Shown piece by piece: positions 2,727-49,464 of a DNA stretch of 49,464 nt. The DNA lies in the IMG/VR virus record IMGVR_UViG_3300025009_000152, positions 1 to 49,464 of that record; one strand, written 5' to 3'. Origin of the DNA: a virus. The notes below the pieces were generated by a model. It saw nothing but the letters and a program-made list of their open reading frames with translations. It was not told the origin of the DNA and searched no databases. A program made the translations under genes and the position numbers. The stretch's first letter is position 1. Each line of letters starts with the position of its first letter.

Positions 2727-5240
2727 ATGTCACTCGCCGGGGAAATTGCCCGCTCATTGGGCCATGGTAAAGAAGAGAAGAACGGAGCAGGGTGGGTAAC
2801 ATGTTGCCCGGTCCATGGCGACAAAACACCATCCCTCGCCGTGACCGACAAAGGCAATGGTGATGTCGATGTATTCTGCCATACAGGCTGTAACTTCGCA
2901 GAGGTCAAGGATACCCTGAGAAGTATGGGCCTCTTACCTGAGTGGGCGCCTGAAAAGAAGAACGGGAAGAAATCATCTCATGCCGGCAATCCCCCCTTAT
3001 CTCCCACGGCCGCACCGGAATCCACCGAACACCCTGAAGCACCTCCCGAGAAAACCGAACCGGAAAAGGAATCTTATATCTGGAAGCAGTCTGACAAAGA
3101 CGGCCTCGACCATGCCAAGCAGTATTTTGCCTCACGGGGAATAACGATAGATCCATTGCCTGTTTGCCTTAAATGGAATTCCTATACCGACAAGAAAACC
3201 GGCGAAACGAATAATATGATCGTGGCCGCGGCGTCACAGCCTGCAGACGAAAAGGTTTTCGCCGTCCAGCGCCTGTTCATTGACCTCGACAACCACAAGA
3301 AGACCGGCGCCAAGATGCACGGACCTTGCGACGGCCGGGGAATATGGTTCAACCGCAAGGGAGATAAGGCGGAAATCGTCGTAGGCGAGGGAATTGAAAC
3401 CGTCCTCTCTGTTATCCAGGCCACCGGCAAAAACGGCGTGGCTGCTCTCTCAACGGCTGGGATGAAGGGGTTGATTATCCCGGACGAAACGAACGTTTTA
3501 TATCTGGCAGTTGATTCCGATCCTGTGCGGGAAAAAGAATCATCCAGCATGCCGGGGCAAAAGGCGGCATATGTCCTTGCTGAGAGATTCGAAGCGTCCC
3601 GCGAAGGAAGGAAGGCTTTCTTGGTTTCGCCGGATGATACCTGTTTCTCAACCAACCCGGCAAAACTCGATTTCAACGACCTTCTCAAGACAGATCCTTC
3701 CGGGGGAGGTATCAGAAAGCAGTTCGAGAAAGCAATTCCCTTTACGGCGATGCAATGGAAGCCGCCTGTCCAGGATCCAAATGCACCAGATCAGGCCGGT
3801 GATGACGGTTTTTATCCGCCTAAAACCATCGAGGCCCTGGCCAAGATGAATAAGGAGTATGCCGCGGTGCTTCTTGGTGGAGATTTCCGGATAGCCAAGG
3901 AGGGCTATGACCATGCCGCCCGGAAGCACACTCTTTCTTTTTTAAAAATAACCTCCCTCTACTCATACTTTGCCAACACCCGGGTGGGAGTCCCTGTGGG
4001 CGAGAACAGGGATATTGAATACAGGGAACTGGCAAAAACCTGGATGACGTGGAACGGTCGACGGACCTATGATGATGTTGTCTTCGATCCTTCAGAGAAG
4101 ACCAGGCCGAACGTCTACAATCTCTTCAAGGGATTCCCCCTTGAGCCCAAGCAGGGCGATTGGTCCCTCATGCGGTCCCACATCTTCAAGGTGATCTGCG
4201 ATAGCAATGCCGAACATTTTGCCTATGTCATGGCCTGGATGGCTCGGGCGGTGCAAGATCCAGGTGGAGACAAGCCAGGCGTCGCAATTGTCCTGAAGGG
4301 TGGCAAGGGCATCGGTAAAGGTGTTTTCGTCAACTACTTCGGGTCAATCTTTGGTGAAGCCTTTTTACCAATATCTGATTCCGAGAGTTTTACCGGCCGG
4401 TTCAACATGCACCTATCGAAATCATTGGTGGTATTCCTGGATGAAGCGGTGTGGGGCGGTGACAAAAAGGCCGAGGGTAAATTGAAGCAGCTGATCACCG
4501 AGCCGACAATCCTCTTTGAGCCCAAAGGAATCGATTCAATCACCCTGGGGAACTACATCAATGTCATCATTGCTTCGAATGAGGAGTGGGTTGTGCCGGC
4601 CACCGGAGATGAACGGCGTTTCTGTGTGCTGGAGCCGTCCGAGGATTTCAAGCAGAACACCGAATATTTCGGGAAAATTGCCAAGGAACGCAGAAACGGC
4701 GGGGCAGAGGCGATGATGTACGACCTGATGAGGCATGATTACAGCGACATTGACCTGAGAAAAGCGCCTATCACTGACGGCCTTTCTGAGCAGGTTCAGG
4801 AGTCGCTCCCTTCGGTCCTGGACTTCTGGCACAGCGTGATTGATCGGGGGTATATGCTGTCGCACAAGGAAACAGGAGTGCCGGTAAAATCAGACCTCAT
4901 TGAGGACGTAGCGCCGATCAATGAACTATGGCCTGGAGCTGTCTACAAATACGAGGTTTACGCCGAATATACCCAATGGTGCCGGGTTCAGAATGAGAGG
5001 TATATTAAAAATGAAGTTCATTTCTGGCGGAATACTTGGAAAATTTGGGATGGCGGGCAACCTGAGAGAAGAAAAATGAAAGGCGCCAACGGGAAAGTGC
5101 TGGATTGTTTGTTTCTCCCCGCACTATCAGTTGCAAAAGACGCATTTACACAAACGACAAAAATCAAGTTTGAAGATCAAGAAATTACTATCCTGAATGG
5201 AGCAAAACAAGAGCCACTACCATTCAGTGACCAGTTTTAA
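2727..5240 (+). CDS. Primase-helicase: CHC2 zinc finger, TOPRIM, D5-type helicase
   Basis: An 837-residue bifunctional replication protein. A CHC2-type zinc finger is formed by C27, H30, C51 and C55. A TOPRIM primase core follows, with the conserved glutamate E221 in VVGEGIE and the DxD motif at D263/D265. The C-terminal half is a D5/DUF5906-type helicase: Walker A GGKGIGK at residues 525-531 and Walker B VVFLDEA with D572-E573. The region at 85-120 is a proline/glutamate linker. It would synthesise primers and unwind the fork. The start has an AAAGGG site 8 nt upstream. The AT-rich, repeat-bearing stretch right after it may be the replication origin. Confidence 0.95.
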   Translation: MSLAGEIARSLGHGKEEKNGAGWVTCCPVHGDKTPSLAVTDKGNGDVDVFCHTGCNFAEVKDTLRSMGLLPEWAPEKKNGKKSSHAGNPPLSPTAAPESTEHPEAPPEKTEPEKESYIWKQSDKDGLDHAKQYFASRGITIDPLPVCLKWNSYTDKKTGETNNMIVAAASQPADEKVFAVQRLFIDLDNHKKTGAKMHGPCDGRGIWFNRKGDKAEIVVGEGIETVLSVIQATGKNGVAALSTAGMKGLIIPDETNVLYLAVDSDPVREKESSSMPGQKAAYVLAERFEASREGRKAFLVSPDDTCFSTNPAKLDFNDLLKTDPSGGGIRKQFEKAIPFTAMQWKPPVQDPNAPDQAGDDGFYPPKTIEALAKMNKEYAAVLLGGDFRIAKEGYDHAARKHTLSFLKITSLYSYFANTRVGVPVGENRDIEYRELAKTWMTWNGRRTYDDVVFDPSEKTRPNVYNLFKGFPLEPKQGDWSLMRSHIFKVICDSNAEHFAYVMAWMARAVQDPGGDKPGVAIVLKGGKGIGKGVFVNYFGSIFGEAFLPISDSESFTGRFNMHLSKSLVVFLDEAVWGGDKKAEGKLKQLITEPTILFEPKGIDSITLGNYINVIIASNEEWVVPATGDERRFCVLEPSEDFKQNTEYFGKIAKERRNGGAEAMMYDLMRHDYSDIDLRKAPITDGLSEQVQESLPSVLDFWHSVIDRGYMLSHKETGVPVKSDLIEDVAPINELWPGAVYKYEVYAEYTQWCRVQNERYIKNEVHFWRNTWKIWDGGQPERRKMKGANGKVLDCLFLPALSVAKDAFTQTTKIKFEDQEITILNGAKQEPLPFSDQF

Positions 5241-25852: not shown

Positions 25853-27400
25853 ATGGCATTATTTGAAGACAAACGAAAGCCGGTTGACCTTTACAAGGAA
25901 GGAAGCTCAACGGCGAATGTTCAAGGGAAGATGAATGCTATGGTCGGCAATGTCGCTGACACCGTGACAACTCCAGCGAGGACAGCATTCAACAGGGGGG
26001 CTTTGGTCCCGGCCAAGAAACTGATGACTGACGTTGTGGCTCCTGCTGCACGGGCCGTTGCCGCTCCTATTACTCAGGGCCGGGAAGGTCAAACCCGCTT
26101 TTTGGCCAGACAGGCAATCAACGCGAACAGAACACCAGTAGGTGAGCGCGAAGCAATGGGCGCACTCATGGGGCCGAACTTTGAGAGAAAGCTCGGCTCG
26201 GTAGGCATGGCCTCATCCGCCACCACGCCAATTCCTGCAGCCAGGGCCACCGCAGAAAATCCGCATGGCAAGGTTTCCAATATCGACACGGCAACAGCGG
26301 CCGGACCTCCAGATATTCCTGTGCAGACAACTCCCCTGGCCGTGCCGCAGCAATCCACGGCCGCAACAGCACTCGCCCAAAATGCCGCCGAACCAGCCGA
26401 ACCGGCAGTGCAGACCAAGCCAGTCTTTATTCAGGACAAGAACGGTCGTGTGGTCAGAACTCAGCGCCCGGTAAACACCCTTGGTTCACCTGAAGGCGCT
26501 CAACCATACACAGGAGCCCAACAACTCGGGAAGTCGTACCCGACAAACGGCACATATCGAACAGACAGCGGTCTTGAGATACGATTTGATCCAGGAACAT
26601 CGCCGGAAATTATTGCCGATGTAATGCGACCTTCCGGGGCGAAATCACCTGAAGTACAGGCAGCGCGGGCAAAGCAGCATGAGCAGTTCCTGGCGAGAGA
26701 AGCAGCCAAGGCAAGGCCGGTGTTTACCAGGAACACCGCTTCTTCCCAGCCCCCGAAAGAGATCAAGACCTTTGGCGACATCATCAATGCCAAGCGGGCA
26801 ATGGCCCAACAGAAGATCGACAACCAAAACCGTGAACTTGGCCTGCAAGAGACTCGCATCGGCAATGATCTGGCACTCGGTATCAACCGGGACGTGACAG
26901 ACCGTGATAATGCAAGGCTTTCCGCCAGGACTCAACTGGGCGTGGCCGGGATGAGCGCGGAGTCGGCGGCCGAGCGGAACGCCATCGACCGGGAGAACAT
27001 GGTCGGCCAGAATGCGGAACGTGGCGTGAATATCGAAGGTAAGCGGATGGAGTTGGGGAATGCGAAGAAGTTGCAGGATCTGCAGAATAAATACTTGGCC
27101 GAGAAGGATCCGGTGAAGAAAAAGGCCATCGAGCGAGATTACTTGACCTTGACCGGCAAAGCGCAACCGAAATTCCAGATATCAGCGCAGGAAAGCGTTG
27201 ACCCAGTAACCGGAATGGCCATCAAGAAGTCGTTCGCGGTGAATCCTGACGACCCGACAGAATCTTTCGAGATTGGGGGAGCGGGACAGGTAGAGCAGGC
27301 GCCGCAAGCAGCCAGCGCCAGGGTCAAAGGGAAAGTATATACCAATCCCCAGGGAAAGAGAGCAACATGGGATGGGACAGGATGGGTTCCTGTTGATTAA
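25853..27400 (+). CDS. Coiled-coil/disordered ejection-type protein
   Basis: A 515-residue protein. The ATG at 25853 is chosen because AAAGGAG lies 8 nt upstream; the ATG at 25847 would leave only 1-2 nt. The N-terminal half is Ala/Pro/Thr-rich and mostly disordered. Residues ~300-425 form charged helices (KRAMAQQKIDNQNRELGLQE, then NAKKLQDLQNKYLAEKDPVKKK). The C-terminus NPQGKRATWDGTGWVPVD is a short WDG-type tail frequent in phage internal proteins. Its 3' end overlaps the convergent small gene by 4 nt. Confidence 0.7.
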   Translation: MALFEDKRKPVDLYKEGSSTANVQGKMNAMVGNVADTVTTPARTAFNRGALVPAKKLMTDVVAPAARAVAAPITQGREGQTRFLARQAINANRTPVGEREAMGALMGPNFERKLGSVGMASSATTPIPAARATAENPHGKVSNIDTATAAGPPDIPVQTTPLAVPQQSTAATALAQNAAEPAEPAVQTKPVFIQDKNGRVVRTQRPVNTLGSPEGAQPYTGAQQLGKSYPTNGTYRTDSGLEIRFDPGTSPEIIADVMRPSGAKSPEVQAARAKQHEQFLAREAAKARPVFTRNTASSQPPKEIKTFGDIINAKRAMAQQKIDNQNRELGLQETRIGNDLALGINRDVTDRDNARLSARTQLGVAGMSAESAAERNAIDRENMVGQNAERGVNIEGKRMELGNAKKLQDLQNKYLAEKDPVKKKAIERDYLTLTGKAQPKFQISAQESVDPVTGMAIKKSFAVNPDDPTESFEIGGAGQVEQAPQAASARVKGKVYTNPQGKRATWDGTGWVPVD

Positions 27401-27618
27401 TAGTTTTTCCCTAAGAATTCCTCATCGGTCATCACCGGGAGCGGGAATATTTTCCGGCAAGAATGCGCGACAACCGACACTGCGGCCTGGTTGTTCGCAT
27501 TCTTGACATTTTTCAAGATGCAATCTTCGTATGATTTCGGCTCGGTCATTTTGCCATATACCAAAAAGCCACCAGATAAAGCGGCTATCACTCCAAAGAT
27601 GACAAAGAGTTTGTTCAT
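27397..27618 (-). CDS. Small membrane protein encoded against the late operon (moron)
   Basis: A 73-residue protein read leftwards from ATG 27618, with GGAGGG 5 nt upstream. A single N-terminal membrane segment or uncleaved signal (KLFVIFGVIAALSGGFLVYG, residues 3-22) is followed by a short outside domain with two cysteines (C33, C54) that could pair. It ends in MTDEEFLGKNY. DEEFLG also occurs at residues 24-29 of the giant virion protein encoded divergently next door. It is inserted between two virion genes with its own upstream signals, the hallmark of a moron expressed from the prophage. A superinfection-exclusion role is a hypothesis. Confidence 0.8.
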   Translation of the reverse strand: MNKLFVIFGVIAALSGGFLVYGKMTEPKSYEDCILKNVKNANNQAAVSVVAHSCRKIFPLPVMTDEEFLGKNY

Positions 27619-27771: not shown

Positions 27772-30700
27772 ATGCCGGAATATCTTTCAGAAGAAGAGTT
27801 TATGGGCGGGTCTGGACAGTCTGCCGTCAAGCCATTAAGCGATGAAGAATTCCTTGGCATCAAACCCAAGCGCACCGTCCTCGGCACCGTTGCCGACACC
27901 GGCGTAACCCTGGCGAAAGGTGTTGTCGGTCTGGGCGAGGCGGCAGTCGGCGCGGCCAACCTTGCCACCTTCGGCGGGGCCGGGAAGGTCATGGATGCAG
28001 TCGGCTACGACCCGAAGAAGACGCAGGACACTCTTTCCTCTCTCTATTCCCCGGCGCAGCAATCAGCCAACAAGGAAGTCGACCAGGCCAAAGGGTTTGT
28101 CGATACCGGCAAGGCCATGCTGGAAAATCCCTCCACCATCTATCACGGCATTGTCGAGACGGCACCGGCCATGCTCGGCGGGGCGGCGGTGGCGCGTGGC
28201 GCTCTTCAGGGCCTTGGCAAAGTTGCGCCGAAACTCATGAAAAGCGCGGGGGCCGTGAAGTGGGCTCCTGTTGTGGCGGGTTCTGCAGGAGAGGGCATCG
28301 TCGCAGGCGGCCAGCAGGCAGAGCAGATCCGGCAGGAAACTCCGGACAAATCCATTTCAATGAAACAGGCGGGGCTTGCCGGTCTTTCCGGTATCGGCAC
28401 GGCGGCTTTCGGGTTTGCCGGTGGTTCGCTGGCCAAGAGGCTCGGCTTCACCGATATCGATACCTTCCTGGCAACCGGCGCAACCGGCACGGCCAAGAAG
28501 GAAGGCTTCAAAGGGCTGGTCAAGAAGATCGTCGGCGGCGGGATTTCCGAGGGAGTGTTTGAAGAGATGCCGCAGACCGCGCAGGAAACCATCCTCTACA
28601 ATGCGGCGATGGACAAGCCGCTTATGGAAGGCGTCCCTGAAGGATTGGCGAAAGCTGGCATTCTCGGCGGCGTCATGGGTGGCGGAGCGAATCTTCTTCC
28701 TTCAGGGCAGCGGGCGGCCGCGGTTGATCCGGGTAATGTTGATCCGGCACAAGCAGGCAGTCAACCACCACCTCCACCAGCAAGCACCTTGCCGATTCCG
28801 CGAGGCTTGGGCAATCCTCAATCCACCTCACCGCCATTCCTGCAGAACGGTCTTGCCGCCGCCGCACCGACCGGCCAAATCGGCCGAGCACTCGGGACTG
28901 TCGCTGATACCTTGCCGATTCCAAGGGGATTTGACGCGCCTCCTGCACCGGGAGCGTCGGCCACGCAGCAATTGGGAAATCCTGCCGCACCGACAACCTC
29001 CTCCACATCGAATACTCCCCGGCCGGCAAGACCCACATTCGACACGACAGTACCAATCGGGCAAGGGGTCAATCTCACCTACATCATTGCCGATTACGGG
29101 CCAACAGTCGCAAAGGCGATTCAACAGGCAAGGAAGGCAGGGCAACCTATCTCGATTGATCAGGCTAAAGCCATAGCCCCCGAGATGGATGCCGCCGACA
29201 AAGCGCAGAGAGAAACCGACACCGCGCTGATTGAAACCGGCGATCTGATGAATGACTTTGCCGACTCCGCGCAGGAGGCCCAGCTTGGCGAAGACGTGAA
29301 GTATCGGCGGAATAAGTTCGAGAGGTTGAAGGCGGGACAAACTCAACAGGGCGAAGGGGTAGGCGATGATTCTATTCAACAAACTGGAAATCAGGATCTT
29401 GAGCCAGGGGGAATCAGCGCAACTCCTGAAGCGCCAAATGTCGCCGGCAGCAATGTTGTCGAAACTCGGCCCACCGGTGCCGGGCGAAAAACCGATAGTG
29501 GAAGTGATGCGGCACAACGCTCGGTTGCTGATCAAGGAGCGTCGTTGGTGGCACCTGATCAAATGGGCGAGGGAATTGACCTTGCAAGAGAAGAGACGGC
29601 GAGCAATCAAACTCCCGTAACACCTGAAAACGAAACACCGATTCCGAGGTCAGTACCAATACTCGACCTGAAGGCACAGCATGGCCGCAAAGTTGGCAAC
29701 GAGATAGCCAAGGCCAGAAACTCGAACACTGATATCAGCTTGCCAGAGGCTTATCGTCGGGCTGGCGAAGAGATGCCAATTGGCAATCCGATGGTCGAAA
29801 AGGTCCAAGCCAAGAGAGAGCAATTCGCCGGGGAATATGATACCGGTAAAGCACCTGAAAGTACCCCCTCCGCCTCTACCGTCATTCCGTCATCCGGAAA
29901 CGGAGATACGGCAAGCGCACCGCAGGGGGTCACTTCTTCCCAAGACGACCAGGACCGGCAAGCCCTCTCCATAATCAGGAATCCCAAATACACCACTCAG
30001 CCGACCGAGGAGCAGCGCCCTATCTTCAGGGAATTGGCGCGGAAGGGATATGCTTCGAGTGCGGATGGATTGACTTATACGATTACCAAGAAGGGCGCTC
30101 GGCGGTTGCGGCGGCTGGGTGATGTGCCGGAAGCGAATGTGGTTCAGCCAATAGCCAAAGATGAGCTCAAGGTTGAGCCAAACTCTGGACAAATACCTGG
30201 CCAAACCGTTGAACAAATAACCCCTGCTATTTCTAAAACAGATGTAAATACATCTGGTTATGAGGCGCAAAAACAGACATATAAGCCGACAAAAGGCGGG
30301 ACAAATAACGCAACCGTTATAAATTCAGGTGCAGAAAATAACGGCGCAGATCCCAATGTAACACCAGAGCTCCCAACATTAGCTCCCAACATTAGCGACG
30401 ATAAAAAGGCTATAAACACCACAGCTCCCAACATAAGCACCGAAAAAGAGCCGTGGCAGATGGGGCAAAAAGAATATGTGTCGTGGGCCGCAGACGGCAA
30501 AGACCCCGATAGTAATATTGATTCCCGAACCCCGACCACAATACGTGAAAATGCTGCAACACAGCACAGGAAGAAGATATACAGGGCTCTCCGCGAAGGA
30601 AAGCCAGTACCTCCTGAAGCCCTTGCAGATTATCCAGATTTACAGCCGCCCACGCTTCCCGCAGGCCAGCGCACCCAGGAAACCACCGAGGAGTTGATCG

Positions 30701-33700
30701 CCCCCGGCGCGCGGCAAGAAACGTCTGCTATTTCGCAACAGCCAGTATCGGCGGGCGGTGCACAGGCGGAAAAACCAGCCAAAAAGCCAGGACAAATCCA
30801 CGATTACAGCAACACTCAGGTGAATATCAAGGGTCGCGCTGCAAGGAAAATCAGGAGTTTTGGCAAAAGCATCCCTGACGCAGAACTTTACACCGACCCG
30901 AACGATGATTCATACGGCCGAGAGAAAGAACCGCACATCACCGTCAGATATGGGCTTGATACCGACGATCCGGCCAAACTCGCTGAACTGTCAAAACTCG
31001 GTCCGATAACCGCCAAGATCGGCAAGGTATCTATCTTCGAGACAGATAAATATGATGTTGTCAAGGCGGAAATCGAAAGCGACTCTATGCGGGCAGCAAG
31101 CAGGAAGGTAGGAGAACTTGTTGCCGTTCCTGGCGAGACGTTCAAGGATTACCAGCCTCATGCCACCATTGCCTATGTCAAAAAAGGCGAAGGCAAAAAG
31201 TATGTTGGTGACAAATCCCTTGAAGGCACGGAGATTACCTTTGACGAGATCAACCTGACCGACCGGATAGGGATGAGCCATTCGATTAAATTGTCAGGGC
31301 AACCCTCATCCCCTGCAGTCCCTGAATCGAAAGAAACGCCTGCTCAAGAGGTTAGTGGGGGGAAGGGTGAGCCTACAGGAAAATATCAAGGCTTCTCTTT
31401 TTCGGCAGAAGAAATCCCGTATCAAGCGGCATACGACGCATACCGAGGCAGCAGTTTTTCCCCAGACAAGAGAGCGAAGCAGGTTCAGGAAGGCTACGTC
31501 AGCCACATGCAGGAAGTTGTTGACACGCTCTCCAAACTCGCCAAGACAGACGAGCAGAAGGCCGACTTGCGTTCATGGTTCAACGACTATTACAAGCCGA
31601 AATATGTCACGCTCCTGAAGAGCAAACTGTCCGCCGACTCCCGCACAATGTCCTCGATGATCACCGGACCCGCCAACTTCCCGACGCGCGGCAATCAGAA
31701 AAAACTCGATACTGCTGACAAGAGATCGAAGGAACTATACGAGTGGGCAGATTCGGCATACAGCAAGATGAAGCGTAAGTTGTCCGGCAGAGAGGGAATT
31801 TCTTCAACTGACCCGGAAGCACTCGCCAAACTGAAGGAAAAACTTGCCACTCTCGAGTCATCGCATGAAACGATGAAAGAGGCGAACAAGATTATCAAGA
31901 ACAAGAAACTTTCCGAGGCCGAGAAGATTGCCGCACTCGTTGCAATGAAATTTACCGAGAAGCAGGCCAAGGAAATATTGCAACCTGATTTCGCCGGGAG
32001 AATTGGTCTTGCTCCATACGTTTTTCAGAACAGCAACGCCAATATCAAGACCGTCAAAGACCGCATTGCAGCCCTTGAGCAGAGAGCGGAGAAGGCTGAA
32101 GAGACAGGCGGTAGCGAGACAAGAGAGTTCGACGGCGGCAGTGTCGAGTTGAATTACGGAGACGGTTATGTGCGGATATTCCATGATGACAAACCGAGCG
32201 CAGATGTACGTCAGCAGTTGAAGAGCAACGGTTTCAGGTGGAGCCCGGCCGATAGTGCATGGCGGCGTAAACTGAACAATCAGGCGCAATGGAAGGCTGA
32301 AGAGATCACTGGCGTAAAGTTCGCCAAAGAAGATTTATCCGACCTGAAGAACTCCAAATCCCTCCCCCCACCAAAATCCAGCGCCACCGGCAAACCATGG
32401 AAGGAAACTCTCGAATCAATCGGCATGTTCGTAGATGCCACAAAGCAGGAGGTCGTGAATGAGGCGCAGAAATACGAAAGCGGAAAAATCATTCCTTGGA
32501 AGTTGCGGGACAGTATGGCACGAAGGAATAAGAATGGGAGTGTTAAGGCCACAGGACTTCCCGAAACCGACTTTGCAGCAGCGGAAAGACTTGCGCGAAT
32601 CTTCAATAAAGAGATTGTTTGGGCCACAATAGGCGACCAACTCAAGATTAACGGCTTCATCGTTCGCAATAACCAGAAACTCGCCAATCAGATATTTATT
32701 GATGTGCGATCCAACCTGCCGATGCACACCATTTTTGGTCATGAACTTGTGCATCATATCGAGCAGGATTCGCCAAAGGCTTTCAATGATCTGTTTGCCG
32801 TGGCCCAGCGCTTCATTAAAGACACCGATAAATATGCAGCCGAGCGGAGCCTGAAGGGTTTATCCGAGCGGGATTTACAGGTTGAGATCCTTGCCGACTT
32901 CATGGGTGATAACTTTGCCAATCCGGAATTCTGGCAAGAGGTGCAGGCTCAGGCGGGGGAAACCAGATTCAGGCGTATTGCCAGACGGATTATGCGCTGG
33001 ATTGATAGCCTGCTGGGCAAGACTTCCGGTCTGCGAAGATATGGATCGGACAAGTTTATCAGCGACGTGAAGGCGGCTCGAAGTTTAATGGCCGGGTTTG
33101 TTGCCGGATATCAAAGCGAGAATGCCGGGGTTGATGGGGGCGTCGGGGAGTTTGAGGAATCCGCAGCATTCCACGGCTCACCGCATGACTTCGACGCTTT
33201 CAGGATGGGCAAGATTGGGACGGGAGAGGGCAATCAAGCGTATGGCTCAGGTCTTTATTTTGCATCGAAAAAAAGCGTGGCAGATTGGTATAGGAAATCG
33301 CTTTCAGAGAGTGTTTTTGAAACCACACAGGGCAGGCTTGGCTTATATGAAATAACCGATGAGTTAATGAAGGAGATGGAGCGCGACGGCAATTTGACCA
33401 ATATCTCTACTATGAACAGGATTGCCAATAACGTTATTGACGGAGTGATGGAAAGCGGTTCTGCCCGCAAATATTTCAAGAATTACGACACCGAAATAGG
33501 CGGTGCGTATCAGCGATATTACGAATCAGCGCACAAAGCACTTAAAAGGCTTGATCCCAAAAATTCAAAGGGCAAACTCTACGAAGTAGAACTTGCTCCA
33601 CAGGAAGATGAATATTTGTTGTGGGATAAACCTCTGAGTGAGCAGCCGGAGAAGGTGAAAGAGGCGTGGAAAAATCTTGATTACAAGGGCCTTGGTCTGG

Positions 33701-36700
33701 CGGTAGAAAAAGGGCCTGACGGCAAATACGAACTCGTTGATTCAAAAGGCTTGGCTCGTAGTGGTTCTTATGAGTCTGAGGATGAGTTGCTTGATTGGTG
33801 GTATGTCCGTCCTACTGGCGGAAGATTCTACGAAAACGTGTTGTCCAGCATTCTCGGTTCAGATAGCAAAGCCTCCGAATACCTTCACTCCCTCGGCATC
33901 CGTGGCATCAAATACCTCGACGGCACCAGCAGGGGCAAAGGTGACGGCAACTTCAACTATGTAATCTTCGACGAAAATGATATCTCCATAACCGCCAAGT
34001 ATTCCGTAGCCGGGATGTCCGAAGCATTCCGGGCATGGTTCGGCAAATCGGTCGTATCAAAAACCGTATTCCACGGCTCGCCAACCTTCGGCCAAGGCAA
34101 CAACTTCACCTTCGATGTCAACCGAGTATCCGGCAAGACCTCATCCCCGGGCAGAGGCTTAGGCACCTTCTTCACGGAAGACCGCAACGAATCTCTTTCC
34201 TATGCCGGGGCGTCCGGTGAATCCCTGCCGATCCGGCTGAGAATCGAGAATCCGCTGGAAATCAATTCCTACAACCTGCCCGCATTCAAGACCGTGGAAG
34301 AGGCCAGAGCGTACCGGAAAAGAAAGGAGTTGCAGGGCTACGATGGTATCCACCTGAAAGACCTCGATCATTGGGTAATCTTCGAGCCGAATCAGGCGAA
34401 GTCTGCGGATAAGAACAGCGGGGAGTATAGCCGGGAGAATGATGATATTCGGTATTCCTTCTCCAGCACCGCCAAAGACATGGCCGCGACTTACCGCGAC
34501 CTGATGGCCGACGAGAGTTATATCCGGAAACTCCCCACGGATTCGACGCTTCTCAGCAAGATATTCTCTTCCCCCGAATACACCTTCAAGAAAGCGGCGG
34601 CGGCATGGCGGGCTATCCAGGTCCAATACAACCGGATGGACGCGAAAATCAAACTTGAGAACGATGTCTTTAATACCAAAGTCGGGCAGGACGGCAAGAA
34701 GTCCGGATTCATCCAGACCATGCAGGAAGCCAAGAAGAAATTCAAAGAGGCTTACGAGAAGGCCAACAAGTACCTGCTCGACACCGATCGCACCGGCAAG
34801 GCATTCACCCTGCAGCGCAAGAACAGATGGCAGGTAACGACTCCTGAAGGCGAAACCGTGGGCTATGGCGAGATCAAGACCGAAGCCTACAAGATGGCGC
34901 AGGAGCGGCACAAGCTCGACAAGAAGTCGGCGTACGGCAAGATGGTCAAGGATGAAACCGCCAAGGATGCCAACTTCAAACCGCCGAAGTTTTCCGAGTG
35001 GGACTTCAACGGCAGGCTGATCAACGACTACAAGGTCACGGAAGGCGAGTGGTGGGCGGTGGTCGATAAAAACGGCAAGGAGGTATCGCTACACGAAAAC
35101 GATTCCGACGCGTCCAAAGACATGATGGACCGGGAAGGCGACATGCTCCGGGGCAAGGGCTACGCTGAGAAGGCGGTTACTCTGGTCCGCGAATACCGGG
35201 AGATGACCGGCCGGGCCTTCGACATGATGATTGCCGACCTTCGCAAGATCATTGCCGAGGCGAGAGAGAATGGCCTCGATGAGCCGACTGTCTCAGTGGT
35301 CGATGAGACGAAAAGATTTGCCGTGAGAGAAGACGGCAAGACCATTGCCACATTTGCCACCAAGAAAGATGCCATGAAGTTCGGCGGCGGCAAGCACACC
35401 GTCAAAGAACAGGCAGACGACGAGATCCGGAAGGAAATGAAACTCTCCGAAGTCATCGCCATGATGTCCGACCTTCGCGGCAGTTACTTTGCCCGTCAAC
35501 GCGCCCGAGGGTCAATCGTCCTCCGCGCCGAGAAAGACGGCGAGAAGATCATGAAGAAGTTCGACTTCCACATGGTGGGGGATAAATACATCGATGCGGA
35601 AACCGGTGTCGAATACAACCGGGCTCCGCTCGATTGGATGAAGAAAGCATTTAACTTCACGATGTCGGCCATCCCCGGGACGCTCTCAAAGGAGATGCGG
35701 CTCCTGAAGCGACAGGGCTACACCATCACCAGTGTTGGCAAGGAAACCTCCATGCCTGAATCGGTATTCGAGGCGGCAAAACTGGTTGCTTCCATCTCGG
35801 CAATGCTGACCGAGGCCAAGGAAAAGGCCGGCAAGAAAGGCGTCGACAAGACGCTCATCGAGCAGGCGCACAAGATTCTGATGGGCGAACTCTCCAACAT
35901 CATTAAGCAGCGCGGCTACATGTCCTCACGGCTGAAGAGAAACCGGGATTATGTCAGCGGGTTTGAAGAGGACATGCTTCTTTCAGGGACGCAGTATGGC
36001 CGGGGGCTGGCCGCAGGTATCGCCAAGAAGGAGGCAGCTCGGCAGTTCATTGCGGTTGTCACCGGCACCGACATCAATTTCAACACCTGGAAGGCCGACC
36101 GCCTCGAAGAAGGGCAGACCGGAACCTACGACGAATGGCTTGCCTTCATCGAGAATCGAAAACTCGACCCGCTCAAGCAACCAGCGCTCTACGCTGACGT
36201 AATGGCCTGGGTGAAGGAGATGCTCCGAAACGAAGAACAGGTTGACAGGGTGATGGGAACACTGCAGGGCCTGGCCGTCATCAAGTTTCTCGGCTTCCGG
36301 TTGTCGTCGGCCGCGGTGAATGCGACGAACATGGTCCAGGCTGTTCCGGCAACAATCAGCTCTCATACTGGCGGGACAATCAGCGGGGCGCTCCGGGAAG
36401 TCACCCGGGCGGCGACCGCTTATGGAAAATTCCGGACCGGCAAGGATATCTCCGACAGCGACCGGGCTGTTCTTATGGAGATCGTCAATAACGGCTGGGA
36501 TGAGGCACAATTCAACAAGGATTCCGTCGAGGTGTTGCAATCAAAACTCGGCCGTGGTTGGAATACCTTCTCCGAATGGGCCATGAAAGCCTTCGGGGCC
36601 GTGGAGAAGACCAACCGGGCCGTGACCATCCTGGCCGCCTACAACCAGTTCAGGAAGAATACCGGCTTGTCCCATGATGAAGCCATGCAGAAGGCAAAAC

Positions 36701-37644
36701 ACGCCTCTGACCGGGCGCATGGTGTCTATGGCAAGGCAACTCGGCCTACCTGGACGCGGGGCGCATGGAATCCTCTGCGACTCGCATTCACTTTTGCAAA
36801 GTTCGGTCAGAACTACGCCATGAACATGACCGAGATGGGGCTGAAAGGCGACCACAAGGCGGCGGCGTATATGCTCCTCTCTCCTGCGGTCCTGGCCGGT
36901 GCCGGTGCATCTGTTGCGACTCCGGTCATTGTGGCCTTGGCCTCTGCCTTGGGAGTCGGTGGCGACGATCCTGAAGAGGAATTCTACAAGTGGGCGGAAG
37001 AGACTTTCGGCACTGACCGCTTTACTCGTCATGGCCTGGCCGGACTCGCCGGGGTGAACCTGAAAGGCTCTATCCAGATGAACAACCCGATGCCGACGAA
37101 GATATCAGAATTGTTCGGCGCGCCCGGGGCGTTATTCACAGATGTTGTCAAAGGCGCTGAGAGTTTCCGCAAGGGAGAGGTCTTGAAAGGTGTTGAGGCG
37201 TGGGCTCCTACTGCTCTTGGCACCGCAGTAAAATCCGTCCGCGAGGGAACCGAAGGCATTACGACTGGCAGCTACAGCCCGGTGTTCTACGGCAACGAGC
37301 CAATCAAATCAGATGGCGTGGAAGCATCGATCAGATTCCTGGGATTCAACCCGGCCAGAATTTCCGGTATCCGTGAAAAACAGTGGCGGGAAAAGGTCGT
37401 CGCCAAGAAGTTCCAGGAACGCCGGGATGAAATAAATTCCATGATCAAGAAGACCATCATCTATAAGAAGGGCGATATCATGGATGTCTACAAAGAGATC
37501 CAGCGCTACAACGAATTGGTCGTCGGTAGCGGCCGGCGCGATATATCCTTGATCAATCCTGCGCGGCAATTCAGGACGGTGGTTCGGCGGGCGCAGAATC
37601 CGGGGAAGGTTGAGAGAATGAGGATGGTTGACATGGTAGAATAG
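27772..37644 (+). CDS. Giant polyvalent virion protein (2H phosphoesterase, HExxH peptidase, two ART-like domains, PLxRFAG-like C-terminus)
   Basis: A 3,290-residue protein occupying 20% of the genome, of the large polyvalent protein type packaged in heads and delivered with DNA. In order: a duplicated LS(D/E)EEF(L/M)G motif (residues 5-12, 22-29); a Gly/Ala-rich hydrophobic region (~40-280); disordered linkers with repeated PIPRG, and two related helical repeats (~430-460, ~625-665); a 2H-phosphoesterase-like domain (~1010-1165) with HIT at 1055-1057 and HAT at 1130-1132; a small domain with GFRWSPADSAWRR (~1460-1515); an HELVH zinc-peptidase motif at 1657-1661; ADP-ribosyltransferase-like domain 1 (FHGSP from 1800, YGSGLYF 1824-1830, ending ~2085); domain 2 (FHGSP from 2100, ending in NDDIRYS ~2228); three small W/F-x-V repeats (~2352, 2427, 2515); and a helical C-terminus with NPLRLAFTFAKFGQN at ~3000, resembling the PLxRFAG family. 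Activities are inferred from motifs. Confidence 0.88.
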   Translation: MPEYLSEEEFMGGSGQSAVKPLSDEEFLGIKPKRTVLGTVADTGVTLAKGVVGLGEAAVGAANLATFGGAGKVMDAVGYDPKKTQDTLSSLYSPAQQSANKEVDQAKGFVDTGKAMLENPSTIYHGIVETAPAMLGGAAVARGALQGLGKVAPKLMKSAGAVKWAPVVAGSAGEGIVAGGQQAEQIRQETPDKSISMKQAGLAGLSGIGTAAFGFAGGSLAKRLGFTDIDTFLATGATGTAKKEGFKGLVKKIVGGGISEGVFEEMPQTAQETILYNAAMDKPLMEGVPEGLAKAGILGGVMGGGANLLPSGQRAAAVDPGNVDPAQAGSQPPPPPASTLPIPRGLGNPQSTSPPFLQNGLAAAAPTGQIGRALGTVADTLPIPRGFDAPPAPGASATQQLGNPAAPTTSSTSNTPRPARPTFDTTVPIGQGVNLTYIIADYGPTVAKAIQQARKAGQPISIDQAKAIAPEMDAADKAQRETDTALIETGDLMNDFADSAQEAQLGEDVKYRRNKFERLKAGQTQQGEGVGDDSIQQTGNQDLEPGGISATPEAPNVAGSNVVETRPTGAGRKTDSGSDAAQRSVADQGASLVAPDQMGEGIDLAREETASNQTPVTPENETPIPRSVPILDLKAQHGRKVGNEIAKARNSNTDISLPEAYRRAGEEMPIGNPMVEKVQAKREQFAGEYDTGKAPESTPSASTVIPSSGNGDTASAPQGVTSSQDDQDRQALSIIRNPKYTTQPTEEQRPIFRELARKGYASSADGLTYTITKKGARRLRRLGDVPEANVVQPIAKDELKVEPNSGQIPGQTVEQITPAISKTDVNTSGYEAQKQTYKPTKGGTNNATVINSGAENNGADPNVTPELPTLAPNISDDKKAINTTAPNISTEKEPWQMGQKEYVSWAADGKDPDSNIDSRTPTTIRENAATQHRKKIYRALREGKPVPPEALADYPDLQPPTLPAGQRTQETTEELIAPGARQETSAISQQPVSAGGAQAEKPAKKPGQIHDYSNTQVNIKGRAARKIRSFGKSIPDAELYTDPNDDSYGREKEPHITVRYGLDTDDPAKLAELSKLGPITAKIGKVSIFETDKYDVVKAEIESDSMRAASRKVGELVAVPGETFKDYQPHATIAYVKKGEGKKYVGDKSLEGTEITFDEINLTDRIGMSHSIKLSGQPSSPAVPESKETPAQEVSGGKGEPTGKYQGFSFSAEEIPYQAAYDAYRGSSFSPDKRAKQVQEGYVSHMQEVVDTLSKLAKTDEQKADLRSWFNDYYKPKYVTLLKSKLSADSRTMSSMITGPANFPTRGNQKKLDTADKRSKELYEWADSAYSKMKRKLSGREGISSTDPEALAKLKEKLATLESSHETMKEANKIIKNKKLSEAEKIAALVAMKFTEKQAKEILQPDFAGRIGLAPYVFQNSNANIKTVKDRIAALEQRAEKAEETGGSETREFDGGSVELNYGDGYVRIFHDDKPSADVRQQLKSNGFRWSPADSAWRRKLNNQAQWKAEEITGVKFAKEDLSDLKNSKSLPPPKSSATGKPWKETLESIGMFVDATKQEVVNEAQKYESGKIIPWKLRDSMARRNKNGSVKATGLPETDFAAAERLARIFNKEIVWATIGDQLKINGFIVRNNQKLANQIFIDVRSNLPMHTIFGHELVHHIEQDSPKAFNDLFAVAQRFIKDTDKYAAERSLKGLSERDLQVEILADFMGDNFANPEFWQEVQAQAGETRFRRIARRIMRWIDSLLGKTSGLRRYGSDKFISDVKAARSLMAGFVAGYQSENAGVDGGVGEFEESAAFHGSPHDFDAFRMGKIGTGEGNQAYGSGLYFASKKSVADWYRKSLSESVFETTQGRLGLYEITDELMKEMERDGNLTNISTMNRIANNVIDGVMESGSARKYFKNYDTEIGGAYQRYYESAHKALKRLDPKNSKGKLYEVELAPQEDEYLLWDKPLSEQPEKVKEAWKNLDYKGLGLAVEKGPDGKYELVDSKGLARSGSYESEDELLDWWYVRPTGGRFYENVLSSILGSDSKASEYLHSLGIRGIKYLDGTSRGKGDGNFNYVIFDENDISITAKYSVAGMSEAFRAWFGKSVVSKTVFHGSPTFGQGNNFTFDVNRVSGKTSSPGRGLGTFFTEDRNESLSYAGASGESLPIRLRIENPLEINSYNLPAFKTVEEARAYRKRKELQGYDGIHLKDLDHWVIFEPNQAKSADKNSGEYSRENDDIRYSFSSTAKDMAATYRDLMADESYIRKLPTDSTLLSKIFSSPEYTFKKAAAAWRAIQVQYNRMDAKIKLENDVFNTKVGQDGKKSGFIQTMQEAKKKFKEAYEKANKYLLDTDRTGKAFTLQRKNRWQVTTPEGETVGYGEIKTEAYKMAQERHKLDKKSAYGKMVKDETAKDANFKPPKFSEWDFNGRLINDYKVTEGEWWAVVDKNGKEVSLHENDSDASKDMMDREGDMLRGKGYAEKAVTLVREYREMTGRAFDMMIADLRKIIAEARENGLDEPTVSVVDETKRFAVREDGKTIATFATKKDAMKFGGGKHTVKEQADDEIRKEMKLSEVIAMMSDLRGSYFARQRARGSIVLRAEKDGEKIMKKFDFHMVGDKYIDAETGVEYNRAPLDWMKKAFNFTMSAIPGTLSKEMRLLKRQGYTITSVGKETSMPESVFEAAKLVASISAMLTEAKEKAGKKGVDKTLIEQAHKILMGELSNIIKQRGYMSSRLKRNRDYVSGFEEDMLLSGTQYGRGLAAGIAKKEAARQFIAVVTGTDINFNTWKADRLEEGQTGTYDEWLAFIENRKLDPLKQPALYADVMAWVKEMLRNEEQVDRVMGTLQGLAVIKFLGFRLSSAAVNATNMVQAVPATISSHTGGTISGALREVTRAATAYGKFRTGKDISDSDRAVLMEIVNNGWDEAQFNKDSVEVLQSKLGRGWNTFSEWAMKAFGAVEKTNRAVTILAAYNQFRKNTGLSHDEAMQKAKHASDRAHGVYGKATRPTWTRGAWNPLRLAFTFAKFGQNYAMNMTEMGLKGDHKAAAYMLLSPAVLAGAGASVATPVIVALASALGVGGDDPEEEFYKWAEETFGTDRFTRHGLAGLAGVNLKGSIQMNNPMPTKISELFGAPGALFTDVVKGAESFRKGEVLKGVEAWAPTALGTAVKSVREGTEGITTGSYSPVFYGNEPIKSDGVEASIRFLGFNPARISGIREKQWREKVVAKKFQERRDEINSMIKKTIIYKKGDIMDVYKEIQRYNELVVGSGRRDISLINPARQFRTVVRRAQNPGKVERMRMVDMVE

Positions 37645-40081: not shown

Positions 40082-40513
40082 ATGTTTACTGTCCCGAATA
40101 TGGTCTACAATGCGCGGCGCGGCTATTATCTGTATGTTTCTGGGGCAATGGTTTTCAGGCTCCTCGGAAACGGCGTAATTGTGGATGGTTCCGTGGTGCT
40201 GAATACCACCGTAAGCCAAAAATTATTTCTGGAAATTAGTACCGATTTAATCCCAGCGGGATCAACGATGGAGCAGGCACAGGCGCTGCTTACCGCGTAT
40301 CTGGCTGGTTCCGAAATCACTCCAGAGGATATTGGCCTCTTCAAGCAGGTTTACCCGGATTGGGCGGCAGACACAGAGTATCTTGCAAACATTGGCTGCT
40401 CATACGGCATGACCTGCTATATCGCGGCCGTTGATCATACATCTGTTGCGGGCGATGTACCTCCGGCGCATCCTGAGTTATACGCCACACCGTTTGCTCC
40501 ATTTCAGTTTTGA
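40082..40513 (+). CDS. Tail-associated protein with CBM5/12-like C-terminus
   Basis: A 143-residue protein after ACGAGGTGATTT. The N-terminal half is beta-rich. The C-terminus YPDWAADTEYLANIGCSYGM, then CYIAAVDHTSVAGDVPPAHPEL, resembles the small carbohydrate-binding modules of the CBM5/12 type (W...Y...G..V.Y...Y....AHTS pattern). It would suit a fibre tip or fibre-assembly factor binding cell-surface glycans. The similarity is by eye only. Confidence 0.65.
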   Translation: MFTVPNMVYNARRGYYLYVSGAMVFRLLGNGVIVDGSVVLNTTVSQKLFLEISTDLIPAGSTMEQAQALLTAYLAGSEITPEDIGLFKQVYPDWAADTEYLANIGCSYGMTCYIAAVDHTSVAGDVPPAHPELYATPFAPFQF

Positions 40514-40911
40514 TGATGACATCGCGTTACATCGCTATAAATGGCACGGAGGAGCAACAGACCGCACTCCGAGCCAAATTACCGATGCCATTAGACGAGG
40601 TTGTGGAGCGGGTAGAGACCGCCCTCGATATGTGGCCTGATAATCTCTGCATTGTATTTTTGCTGCGCGACACAGCAAAAGGGGTGCAGGATATCTACCG
40701 GCAACGGTACGGCAAGGAGTGCGATTACAAGGCTTTTATCTCGCTTGGCAGGCTGGAGATTGTGTTGTCGGTGGCTGATGCCTCGCTCAAAGTTCTGGCT
40801 CATGAGATCGGACATGCCATTGTTGAGCGATATTTTGGCAAAGAAAAGCGTCCACCGTATCGCATCCATGAGCTACTCGCTCAGTACGCTGAGAAGCATT
40901 TCAGTGATTGA
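40513..40911 (+). CDS. Small HExxH zinc metallopeptidase-like protein
   Basis: A 132-residue protein starting with an ATG that overlaps the upstream TGA by one base; the next ATG, 3 nt on, is also possible. It carries LAHEIGHAIVERYFG with H97-E98-x-x-H101, the zinc-peptidase motif, and E120 or E127 may be the third ligand. The HEIGH form is typical of small Met-zincin-like proteases. Located between fibre and lysis genes, it could process virion or cell-surface proteins. No signal peptide is seen. Confidence 0.75.
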   Translation: MMTSRYIAINGTEEQQTALRAKLPMPLDEVVERVETALDMWPDNLCIVFLLRDTAKGVQDIYRQRYGKECDYKAFISLGRLEIVLSVADASLKVLAHEIGHAIVERYFGKEKRPPYRIHELLAQYAEKHFSD

Positions 40912-44656: not shown

Positions 44657-44744
44657 TGGTAGCGCGGGCGGGATTCGAACCCGCAAGGCCCTAACAGACC
44701 GAAGGATTTTAAATCCTTTGTGTAGACCGTTCCACCACCGCGCC
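44657..44744 (-). tRNA. tRNA-Leu (anticodon UAA), with encoded CCA
   Basis: An 88-nt tRNA read leftwards. The acceptor stem is GGCGCGG / CCGCGCU, the D-arm contains GGUGGAACGGUC, the anticodon stem-loop AAGGAUUUAAAAUCCUU carries UAA, and a long variable arm (GGUCU...AGGGCC) is typical of leucine tRNAs. The T-arm is GCGGG UUCGAAU CCCGC, followed by A and CCA. It lies 6 nt beyond the integrase stop on the same strand. In temperate phages this place is usually the attachment site, with the 3' part of the tRNA matching the host copy. Confidence 0.95.
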
Positions 44745-44750
44745 ATTTCT

Positions 44751-45764
44751 TCATATTCTCCCAAACTTCCCGCGCACCTCTTTGATTATCGCCTCGCTCG
44801 ACAGGGTGGTGTAAATCTCTGTCGTTTGGCTGGTCGTGTGACCCATGGCATACTGCAGGGACCGGAGATTGACGCCGGCCTGCGTGGCATGGGTGCCGAA
44901 GGCGTGTCTTAACAAATGGGGATAAAAATGTCGAGTCAAACCAGCACGGCCCTTTGCCAGCTTGATAATTTTTTTCAGGTCCGTAATCCTCGCTCCGCTT
45001 CTTGACGACCACAACAGACCACCATCCTCCACTTCACCGATCCGCCGCACCAGATAGGGCCGCAACTCGTCAACGATAGGCACCGGACGCTCCTTATTGC
45101 CCTTGCCACGCACGATCAGGATGCCGTGGTCGAGATGCACCTTATCGGCGGTCAGGTTCGCCGCTTCACTCTTTCGCAGGCCGGCATAGTATAGACAGGC
45201 AAATAGTCCGCACTTGGGCCAGATCATGCAATCTATCAGGGCAAGCACTTCTTCTCTCGTCGGCACATTGGGTAGCGGTGCCTTGGTCATCTTCGCCGGA
45301 AACCTCTTGATCTTCACCTCCTGGCAATATCCCTGATCTACTGCCCATTTAAGCAAACCAGATAGTGCCGACAATTCTTTATTTATGGAGGTAGGCGCTA
45401 TGCCATCTGCGATCCTGCGATGCTTGTATTCCTCGACTGTAGCCGTGCTGATGGTTGCAAATTTCAGCTTCCCGATGATCTGCGACCACCGGGCCATATA
45501 TCGTGCCATAACCTCTACGCCTGAAGAAAGATGTTCCAGGCGGTAATGGTTGACAAAAAGAGGGATGGCCTCTGCGATGGTTGGCAGAGGCGACAGTTGG
45601 TTCCCGGTCGTTTTCGATTCTCGGCGCAGGTCGAGCTCAAAAATTCTCGCGTCATCGATGGTCCCTCCCTTGAGCGTGAAAACCTTCACGCCGCCCTTTT
45701 TGCCTTCAGGATAATATTTTATTTGCCACCATCCTGGGTGGGTCGGGTGCGGGTGGATGCTCAT
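44751..45764 (-). CDS. int: Tyrosine recombinase (phage integrase)
   Basis: A 337-residue site-specific recombinase that integrates and excises the phage at the attachment site. Catalytic residues are visible: R197 in YAGLRKSE, H283 and R286 in HLLRHAFGTH, H309 in MGHTT, and the nucleophile Y318 in EIYTTL. The N-terminal part (~60-150) is the SAM-like core-binding domain; the first 50 residues are an arm-binding-like segment (GWWQIKYYPEGKKGG). The start at 45764 has GGAGGG upstream. Direct adjacency to tRNA-Leu marks the likely attP. Confidence 0.95.
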   Translation of the reverse strand: MSIHPHPTHPGWWQIKYYPEGKKGGVKVFTLKGGTIDDARIFELDLRRESKTTGNQLSPLPTIAEAIPLFVNHYRLEHLSSGVEVMARYMARWSQIIGKLKFATISTATVEEYKHRRIADGIAPTSINKELSALSGLLKWAVDQGYCQEVKIKRFPAKMTKAPLPNVPTREEVLALIDCMIWPKCGLFACLYYAGLRKSEAANLTADKVHLDHGILIVRGKGNKERPVPIVDELRPYLVRRIGEVEDGGLLWSSRSGARITDLKKIIKLAKGRAGLTRHFYPHLLRHAFGTHATQAGVNLRSLQYAMGHTTSQTTEIYTTLSSEAIIKEVRGKFGRI

Positions 45765-48801: not shown

Positions 48802-49464
48802 AAACAGCAAAAAACAACATCATTAATGGGTTCAAAGCGACTGACAAAGATTTGAAGTGCAGAGGATTCCAATACGCAGTTGGCGAAATATATGAGCATG
48901 ATGGGAGTATCAGCCTATGCAATAGTGGCTTCCATTTCTGTCAAAATCCACTTGATGTTCTCGACTTTTATGACCTGTGCGACAGCGAGTTTCTGTCTGT
49001 TGAGGCGCATGGTGCTTATGAATCAGATGATAAAAAGACGGTTACGAATAAACTTAAAGTTACTGCATCTATAGGGCTTCCTGGGTTGATTAAGGCATCT
49101 GTAGAGTGGATTATCAATAGCACGAAGAAATCAAAGAAGAAAGATTCCAGCCAACTCGCAGCTTCAGGCTATTACAGCAAACTCGCAGCTTCAGGCGATT
49201 ACAGCAAACTCGCAGCTTCAGGCGATTACAGCAAACTCGCAGCTTCAGGCTATTACAGCCAACTCGCAGCTTCAGGCTATTACAGCCAACTCGCAGCTTC
49301 AGGCGATTACAGCAAACTCGCAGCTTCAGGCGATTACAGCAAACTCGCAGCTTCAGGCTATTACAGCAAACTCGCAGCTTCAGGCTATTACAGCAAACTC
49401 GCAGCTTCAGGCGATTACAGCAAACTCGCAGCTTCAGGCGATTCCAGCCAACTCGCAGCTTCAG
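48798..49464 (+). CDS. DUF7666-like protein with nine-residue tandem repeats (runs off the window end)
   Basis: Open to the end of the window (222 codons plus one base). The N-terminal ~105 residues (KCRGFQYAVGEIYEHDGSIS, then CNSGFHFCQNPLDVLDFY, then VTASIGLPGLIKASVEWIIN) match the layout I recall for DUF7666 proteins, which carry a CRGFQY...SGFHxC..PLD core followed by short tandem repeats. From residue 116 come twelve copies of (D/Y)(Y/S)S(K/Q)LAASG, likely a solenoid. If the window is circular, the next bases give GAA then TAA TAA, so the full protein would be 223 residues. It is ATGA-coupled to the micropeptide upstream. The function is unknown. Confidence 0.8.
   Translation, partial: MKTAKNNIINGFKATDKDLKCRGFQYAVGEIYEHDGSISLCNSGFHFCQNPLDVLDFYDLCDSEFLSVEAHGAYESDDKKTVTNKLKVTASIGLPGLIKASVEWIINSTKKSKKKDSSQLAASGYYSKLAASGDYSKLAASGDYSKLAASGYYSQLAASGYYSQLAASGDYSKLAASGDYSKLAASGYYSKLAASGYYSKLAASGDYSKLAASGDSSQLAAS
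49143..49464 (+). repeat. 27-bp in-frame tandem repeat, 12 units
   Basis: Eleven full units and 25 nt of a twelfth, with consensus GATTACAGCAAACTCGCAGC + TTCAGGC. Variation is confined to three positions: G/T in codon 1 (Asp/Tyr), A/C in codon 2 (Tyr/Ser) and A/C in codon 4 (Lys/Gln). From unit 3 on, codon 1 alternates in pairs (D D Y Y D D Y Y D D), giving a 108-bp higher-order period. Assembly may have collapsed or truncated the array. Confidence 0.97.

Follow-up and report, generated by a model that had tools for sequence, protein, structure and literature searches.

The locus analysed here raises the question of what one very large gene beside the virion genes of a phage encodes, and how its product might be brought into the phage head and act in the next host. 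P1 DarB is a founding virion-delivered antirestriction protein, and we know of no account that resolves how the giant proteins of podophages are recruited into the capsid. The window, by which we mean the whole 49,464-nucleotide stretch of viral DNA, contains one uninterrupted ATG reading frame that encodes 3290 residues. A stop-free frame of this length is not chance, and the original prediction that such a gene takes a fifth of the genome holds for the contig, which is possibly incomplete (9873/49464, 20.0%).

Upstream of the giant gene lie genes for TerL/terminase, portal, major head protein and an Hc3-type head-closure protein. Since the contig proteins tested included no recognisable tail-tube or tape-measure protein, the phage is probably short-tailed. 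A tRNA-Leu adjoins a tyrosine-integrase ORF on the minus strand (contig 44657-45764), which suggests a temperate phage and likely marks its attachment site. Two further observations concern the contig itself: a separate 133-aa protein with a HEIGH motif (40510-40911), without a PHROG match, is a possible second metallopeptidase of the phage; and 27-base tandem repeats with KLAASGDYS-like 9-residue units (49140-49464) reach the contig end, where the assembly may have broken.

Matches to Pfam, PHROG and NCBIfam families place at least two biochemically unrelated domains in this one chain, and the gene is encoded together with portal-terminase virion genes. Phage-type polyvalent proteins combine several unrelated enzyme domains and are expected to be injected (Iyer et al. 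2017, PMC5512222). These matches, the end domains of relatives and the gene layout support well the original assignment to the large polyvalent proteins, and the protein is a further member of this known class, with another architecture. Two narrower identities were rejected: neither a methylase nor a helicase is among the Pfam, PHROG and NCBIfam matches, as a DarB methylase-helicase identity would require, and the same matches contain no RNA polymerase family, as would be expected of an N4-like virion RNA polymerase.

The class is recognisable by its ends. Profiles of individual blocks, run over the ORFs of about 240 fetched loci, place the start of the N-terminal domain never more than 176 residues from the ORF start. 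In 23 of the 24 proteins whose 3' end is complete, 37-53 residues separate the PLxRFG domain from the stop (window included; the exception is vir555, with 128); PLxRFG also lies near the C-terminus in ten ORFs of isolated phages. The conserved Gly-rich N-terminal domain, which the original prediction had passed over, is ~37% identical to its counterparts in F116-like Pseudomonas phage giants and recurs in proteobacterial prophages, and both end domains are common to F116-like and "DarB-like" podophage giants, always at the chain ends. The giant protein of phage 8P, which shares them, carries the annotation "structural". The F116 annotation (L245 14839-26200) distributes the giant over two adjacent ORFs, with the N-terminal domain in gp59 and PLxRFG in gp60; this could be a natural split or a sequence error. 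As for the predicted PLxRFAG-like C-terminus, the NCBIfam family NF032893 'PLxRFG domain' is matched above its cut-off (5.7e-35; 120.9 bits vs 100), although the literal motif is only PLxR-like (PLRLAFTFAKFG at 3001). This domain contains the sole strongly hydrophobic stretch of the protein, a possible membrane hairpin.

Table 1. Features of the giant protein gene and its upstream neighbour (window coordinates)
Feature	Position	Strand	Basis
Whole polyvalent protein gene, 3290 aa	27772..37644	+	Single ATG ORF
Tag copy 1, LSEEEFMG, residues 5-12	27784..27807	+	Self-alignment p=0.02; class-wide excess
Tag copy 2, LSDEEFLG, residues 22-29	27835..27858	+	Codon differs from copy 1 at 4/6 identical residues
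Gly-rich N-terminal domain, residues 41-310	27892..28701	+	phrog_30335, tblastn, alignment, genome matches
Small W-x-M...P domain, residues 892-957	30445..30642	+	Recurs in other giants
2H phosphoesterase domain, residues 1008-1177	30793..31302	+	Pfam PF13563, AF2 + Foldseek
DUF3560-type plus RW module, residues 1270-1512	31579..32307	+	phrog_6744 and phrog_19458
Zincin-like metallopeptidase domain, residues 1615-1780	32614..33111	+	HExxH...E conservation, predicted helix/strand order
ART1, residues 1798-2078 (H1801, Y1829, candidate acid D2070)	33163..34005	+	Pfam ART-PolyVal, BFVD Foldseek
ART2, residues 2097-2229	34060..34458	+	Pfam ART-PolyVal, best stretch 2097-2218
Small repeat 1, residues 2353-2379	34828..34908	+	
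Small repeat 2, residues 2428-2454	35053..35133	+	
Small repeat 3, residues 2515-2540	35314..35391	+	
Conserved domain preceding C-terminal domain, residues 2650-2761	35719..36054	+	Profile matches
C-terminal PLxRFG/tail-700 domain, residues 2832-3247	36265..37512	+	NF032893 above cut-off
Hydrophobic stretch, residues 3030-3066	36859..36969	+	Kyte-Doolittle 1.98 over 19 residues
73-aa small membrane-type ORF ending ...MTDEEFLGKNY, third tag copy	27397..27618	-	Just upstream, opposite strand

Between these ends the cargo changes. The set of domains in the window protein was found in none of the giant relatives compared, so that the domain order was rightly called unfamiliar, and such turnover is the rule in the class. 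Some combinations do recur: a zincin-like domain stands directly before ART1 in the window and in six other loci (L112, L113, L119, L121, L137 and L144); the 2650-2761 domain was found by profile search in 11 giants, always ahead of PLxRFG when both occur; and the profile of the small W-x-M...P domain matches 12 ORFs, 11 of which have at least 1500 residues. The three predicted W/F-x-V repeats are weak, yet exceed shuffles (p 0.009, 0.03 and 0.02). Single-sequence scans of viral contigs with the C-terminus and with a 524-aa block around residues 1230-1753 returned no relative; both regions were later reached through other loci and alignments.

The 2H-phosphoesterase signature noted at the outset is borne out by two HxT motifs (H1055/T1057 and H1130/T1132) and by a match to Pfam 2_5_RNA_ligase2 (PF13563) at 2.6e-6, 28.0 bits vs a cut-off of 27. 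An AF2 model of residues 1005-1540 (mean pLDDT 80) likewise agrees with the predicted fold, and Foldseek relates it to a phosphodiesterase of phage BCSR5, Usb1, LigT and Acb1, with probabilities of 0.93-1.0 and E-values of only 0.003-0.07. The cassette is 58-83% identical across relatives and lies, in 11 of 11 loci (near-copies included; about seven are distinct), within a large ORF with a differing set of other domains. Because such similar cassettes sit inside giants with other cargo, we take this as evidence that the 2H cassette is mobile. No match to the family was obtained in the bacterial genomes searched. In L012, one of the relatives, the second histidine of the 2H domain has been lost; and two near-identical contigs share a 2H giant gene that reads through for 2308 aa in L003 but in L002 is interrupted downstream of the 2H domain (1006 + 1331 aa).

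The presence of Acb1 among these matches raises the question of whether the 2H domain is a virion-delivered anti-CBASS nuclease of the Acb1 family. All seven aligned 2H members match the Pfam Acb1 model (best E 5.6e-6), Acb1 (7t26) has the highest target-normalised TM-score of the Foldseek matches (0.61), and destruction of signalling nucleotides by such domains was proposed by Iyer et al. (PMC5512222). However, with 24.2 bits for Acb1 (PF23474) the window protein stays below the family cut-off of 27 and below its 2_5_RNA_ligase2 score of 34.3, and Usb1, LigT and the BCSR5 phosphodiesterase are Foldseek matches as well. Acb1 shares the 2H fold and the two HxT motifs but is free-standing, whereas the 2H domain of the window is embedded in a giant protein. 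We consider the reading as a virion-delivered anti-CBASS nuclease of this family unlikely.

The DUF3560-type module with its 'RW' part, absent from the original prediction and without mention in Iyer et al. 2017 (PMC5512222), belongs to a large phage family with 345 related stretches in viral contigs. Among 84 ORFs of the fetched set that carry it, 67 are shorter than 600 aa, mostly ~310-aa free-standing proteins, and 13 have at least 1500 aa; free-standing gene and part of a giant protein are therefore alternative states of this module.

For the zincin-like domain, HExxH at 1657-1661 (H1657, E1658, H1661) and a glutamate 44 residues past the second histidine (E1705) are invariant in aligned relatives, and the model has a plausible helix/strand order with a core pLDDT of 75-91. 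Thus the HExxH motif named by the original prediction belongs to a conserved HExxH...E family, although the zincin fold itself gained no significant Pfam or PDB match. The combined zincin and ART model also had no significant match in the PDB by Foldseek; its top match, a cyanophage pre-ejectosome, was rejected (probability 0.60, TM-score at most 0.16). Against predicted viral proteins (BFVD), the same model matched ART-PolyVal and 'large polyvalent protein associated domain' entries with E down to 8.5e-19.

Both expected ADP-ribosyltransferase-like domains are present: FHGSP blocks lie at 1800 and 2100, Pfam ART-PolyVal (PF18760), the Tox-ART-HYD2 type, is matched over two stretches at 4.3e-15 (57.1 bits vs a cut-off of 31.2), and the fold agrees with the ART-PolyVal models of other phages. 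Across 79 sequences of ART1, H1801 and Y1829 are 100% conserved and the candidate acid D2070 91%; in ART2, by sequence inspection, F replaces Y and there is no clear strand-2 tyrosine. Relatives of ART1 occur in several settings: as a free-standing gene flanked by portal and scaffold genes in phiGT1, a Sulfitobacter phage (phiGT1_5, L246 4918-6081); in a giant protein beside an annotated internal virion protein in vir555 (L153 6549-12473), a virus assigned to Methanomicrobiales, hence to an archaeal host; and directly followed by an HExxH-like segment in L093 (7995-8777), L094 and L095, an arrangement resembling a peptidase domain interrupted by ART1.

These patterns of conservation bear on whether the giant protein is an enzyme carrier at all or chiefly has a structural role in ejection, as a pilot protein that builds the DNA channel, with decayed enzyme-like domains as passengers. 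Such a role would accord with the end domains being the best conserved parts, with the missing strand-2 tyrosine of ART2 and with the histidine lost from the 2H domain of L012; the invariant HExxH...E of aligned zincins, the full conservation of H and Y in ART1 and the high identity of the 2H cassette amid unrelated surroundings speak against it, and we regard it as very improbable.

What lies ahead of the Gly-rich domain had escaped the original prediction. The protein begins MPEYLSEEEFMGGSGQSAVKPLSDEEFLG, in which a short acidic and aromatic tag occurs twice. Related giants likewise carry a motif twice within their first ~70 residues, e.g. YLSDEEVF, DFDxWDKEI, NPLxKYRDMDAA, LLSDADIFG, DEWWLEAPV or, in USP_25 and 8P, SDQKPWESF. 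Most motifs differ from each other across giants, and the two copies are a median of 18 residues apart. In 29 of 63 related giants the duplication reaches p<=0.05 against same-residue shuffles, compared with 7/140 internal windows of the same giants (5%) and 14/113 N-termini of other ORFs; the Fisher values of 1e-11 (vs internal windows) and 1e-6 (vs other N-termini) overstate the significance because the counts treat related phages as independent. In an independent set of 38 prophage homologues, collected from named bacterial genomes by the N-terminal domain only, the counts were 29/38 vs 1/38 for internal windows (3%; Fisher 1e-11, again overstated by kinship). In a hand-picked motif set the tags are 30% acidic, 17% aromatic and 3% basic, vs 14, 7 and 13% overall. 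A recent tandem duplication was rejected as the cause of the pairs, since half of the identical residues with degenerate codons (161/324) differ in codon between copies; the pairs must thus be old and held at the protein level. Our search of open-access papers turned up no account of this duplication, and the tag is apparently a general and undescribed feature of the class.

The tag and the domain behind it have separate histories. At 87% identity in the N-terminal domain, L265 and L269, both from Acinetobacter, nevertheless differ in their tags, with KKPWEQNW twice in one and LKPFTGxLD twice in the other; the Delftia prophages L277 and L272 share 84% and also differ in their tags; the LKPFTGxLD pair, in turn, is common to Acinetobacter and Delftia prophages with a domain identity of only 49-55%. 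These comparisons indicate that the tag is exchanged as a pair, independently of the adjacent domain. As the copies are alike within a phage and differ between phages, the pattern suggests that both may bind one partner that varies between phages.

The search for that partner covered the genes nearby. Among the genes within 20 kb upstream in 12 prophages with different tags, none varies along with the tag, and no further tag copy stood out elsewhere in that interval. In the immediately upstream virion gene there is a weak excess (4/23 at p<=0.05, combined p 0.017), too weak for a systematic link, which was rejected. In USP_25 and 8P (L244 15784-16959, L247 3736-5712) the adjoining upstream virion gene ends ADQNNWEKI, like the SDQKPWESF of the giant, a resemblance not significant against the whole shuffled proteome. 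In the window, the third tag copy in the small 73-aa ORF scores 32 (shuffled-proteome mean 22.1, sd 2.0, max 27.5); no homologue of this ORF was found in the phage collection.

The tag may be a label that gets the giant protein loaded. Our tentative reading, which we would place slightly short of an even chance, is that a duplicated, phage-specific and recombinationally exchanged address tag decides virion loading of the giants of short-tailed phages, as a plug-in pair separate from delivery domains and cargo, and that a resident prophage may copy the tag in a small membrane protein. The upstream survey and the third copy in a neighbouring membrane-type protein would also fit a tag that acts after ejection, by docking the protein to a host envelope or cytoplasmic factor or by helping to build an ejection channel. 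The same tag in Acinetobacter and Delftia prophages, however, means that the tag does not simply follow the host, and the packaging signal of P1 DarB occupies the same place; action after ejection thus appears somewhat unlikely.

The first 30 residues of P1 DarB carry a reporter into the capsid (PMC9024508), i.e. an N-terminal signal can suffice to package a foreign protein. Mass spectrometry of purified virions of Burkholderia podophage JC1 ranks a DarB-like 4515-aa protein (gp69) second by score, on 51 unique peptides (PMC9144972); the comparison with the window protein is made at the level of the DarB-like class. Given the gene position, the end domains and the JC1 mass spectrometry, the window protein is likely packaged and injected. 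We think it likely, overall, that the phage, temperate and probably short-tailed, encodes here a polyvalent protein in which a constant shell loads and delivers and an exchangeable cargo acts in the first minutes. The shell (tag pair, Gly-rich domain, and PLxRFG with its hydrophobic hairpin) would recruit the protein into the head during assembly, with loading through the N-terminus; the protein would leave through the portal with the DNA, and the end domains would help it across the envelope. Iyer et al. proposed self-processing by zincins, modification of host proteins by ARTs, and for 2H domains a role in either cleaving RNA or destroying defence nucleotides (PMC5512222). By analogy with these families, the zincin would probably cut the chain into units, so that the ARTs, the 2H domain and the DUF3560-type module act separately; the ARTs would modify host proteins; and the 2H domain would cleave RNA ends or defence signal nucleotides, two alternatives between which the present data do not discriminate. 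On this scheme, the giant protein may act against host defences before transcription.

A class-wide tag could matter more than the one arms-race architecture that this protein adds. It is a short, phage-specific sequence open to deletion, swapping or reporter fusion, and the rule of constant ends and variable cargo offers a way to find early-acting phage enzymes, by reading between the two end domains.

Compared with known systems, the window protein resembles the polyvalent proteins of Iyer et al. in joining zincin, ART and 2H domains in one polypeptide encoded with virion genes, and differs in its own combination of cargo and in the duplicated tag, undescribed there (PMC5512222). It shares N- and C-terminal domains with the giants of F116, 8P and USP_25, an ART2 relative with F116 and USP_25, and a duplicated tag with 8P and USP_25; the F116-like giants differ in most of the middle, yield no 2H domain with the profile used and have no DNA-level similarity. 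With Parlo, ZX1, Pavtok, PBC5, POI1126 and related podophages the likeness is the C-terminal PLxRFG domain in the last large gene before the lysis genes; the PLxRFG proteins of Parlo, ZX1 and kin are ~24% identical to the window protein, in the C-terminus only, and records of 'DarB-like antirestriction' or PLxRFG proteins name a methylase and helicase cargo, both of which it lacks. Finally, P1 DarB and the capsid-targeting sequences of T4 send proteins into the phage head by a short N-terminal peptide (PMC9024508), and the tags described here sit in the same place; in contrast to DarB, which has no duplication, the tag of the window protein is duplicated, phage-specific and swapped between phages as a pair.
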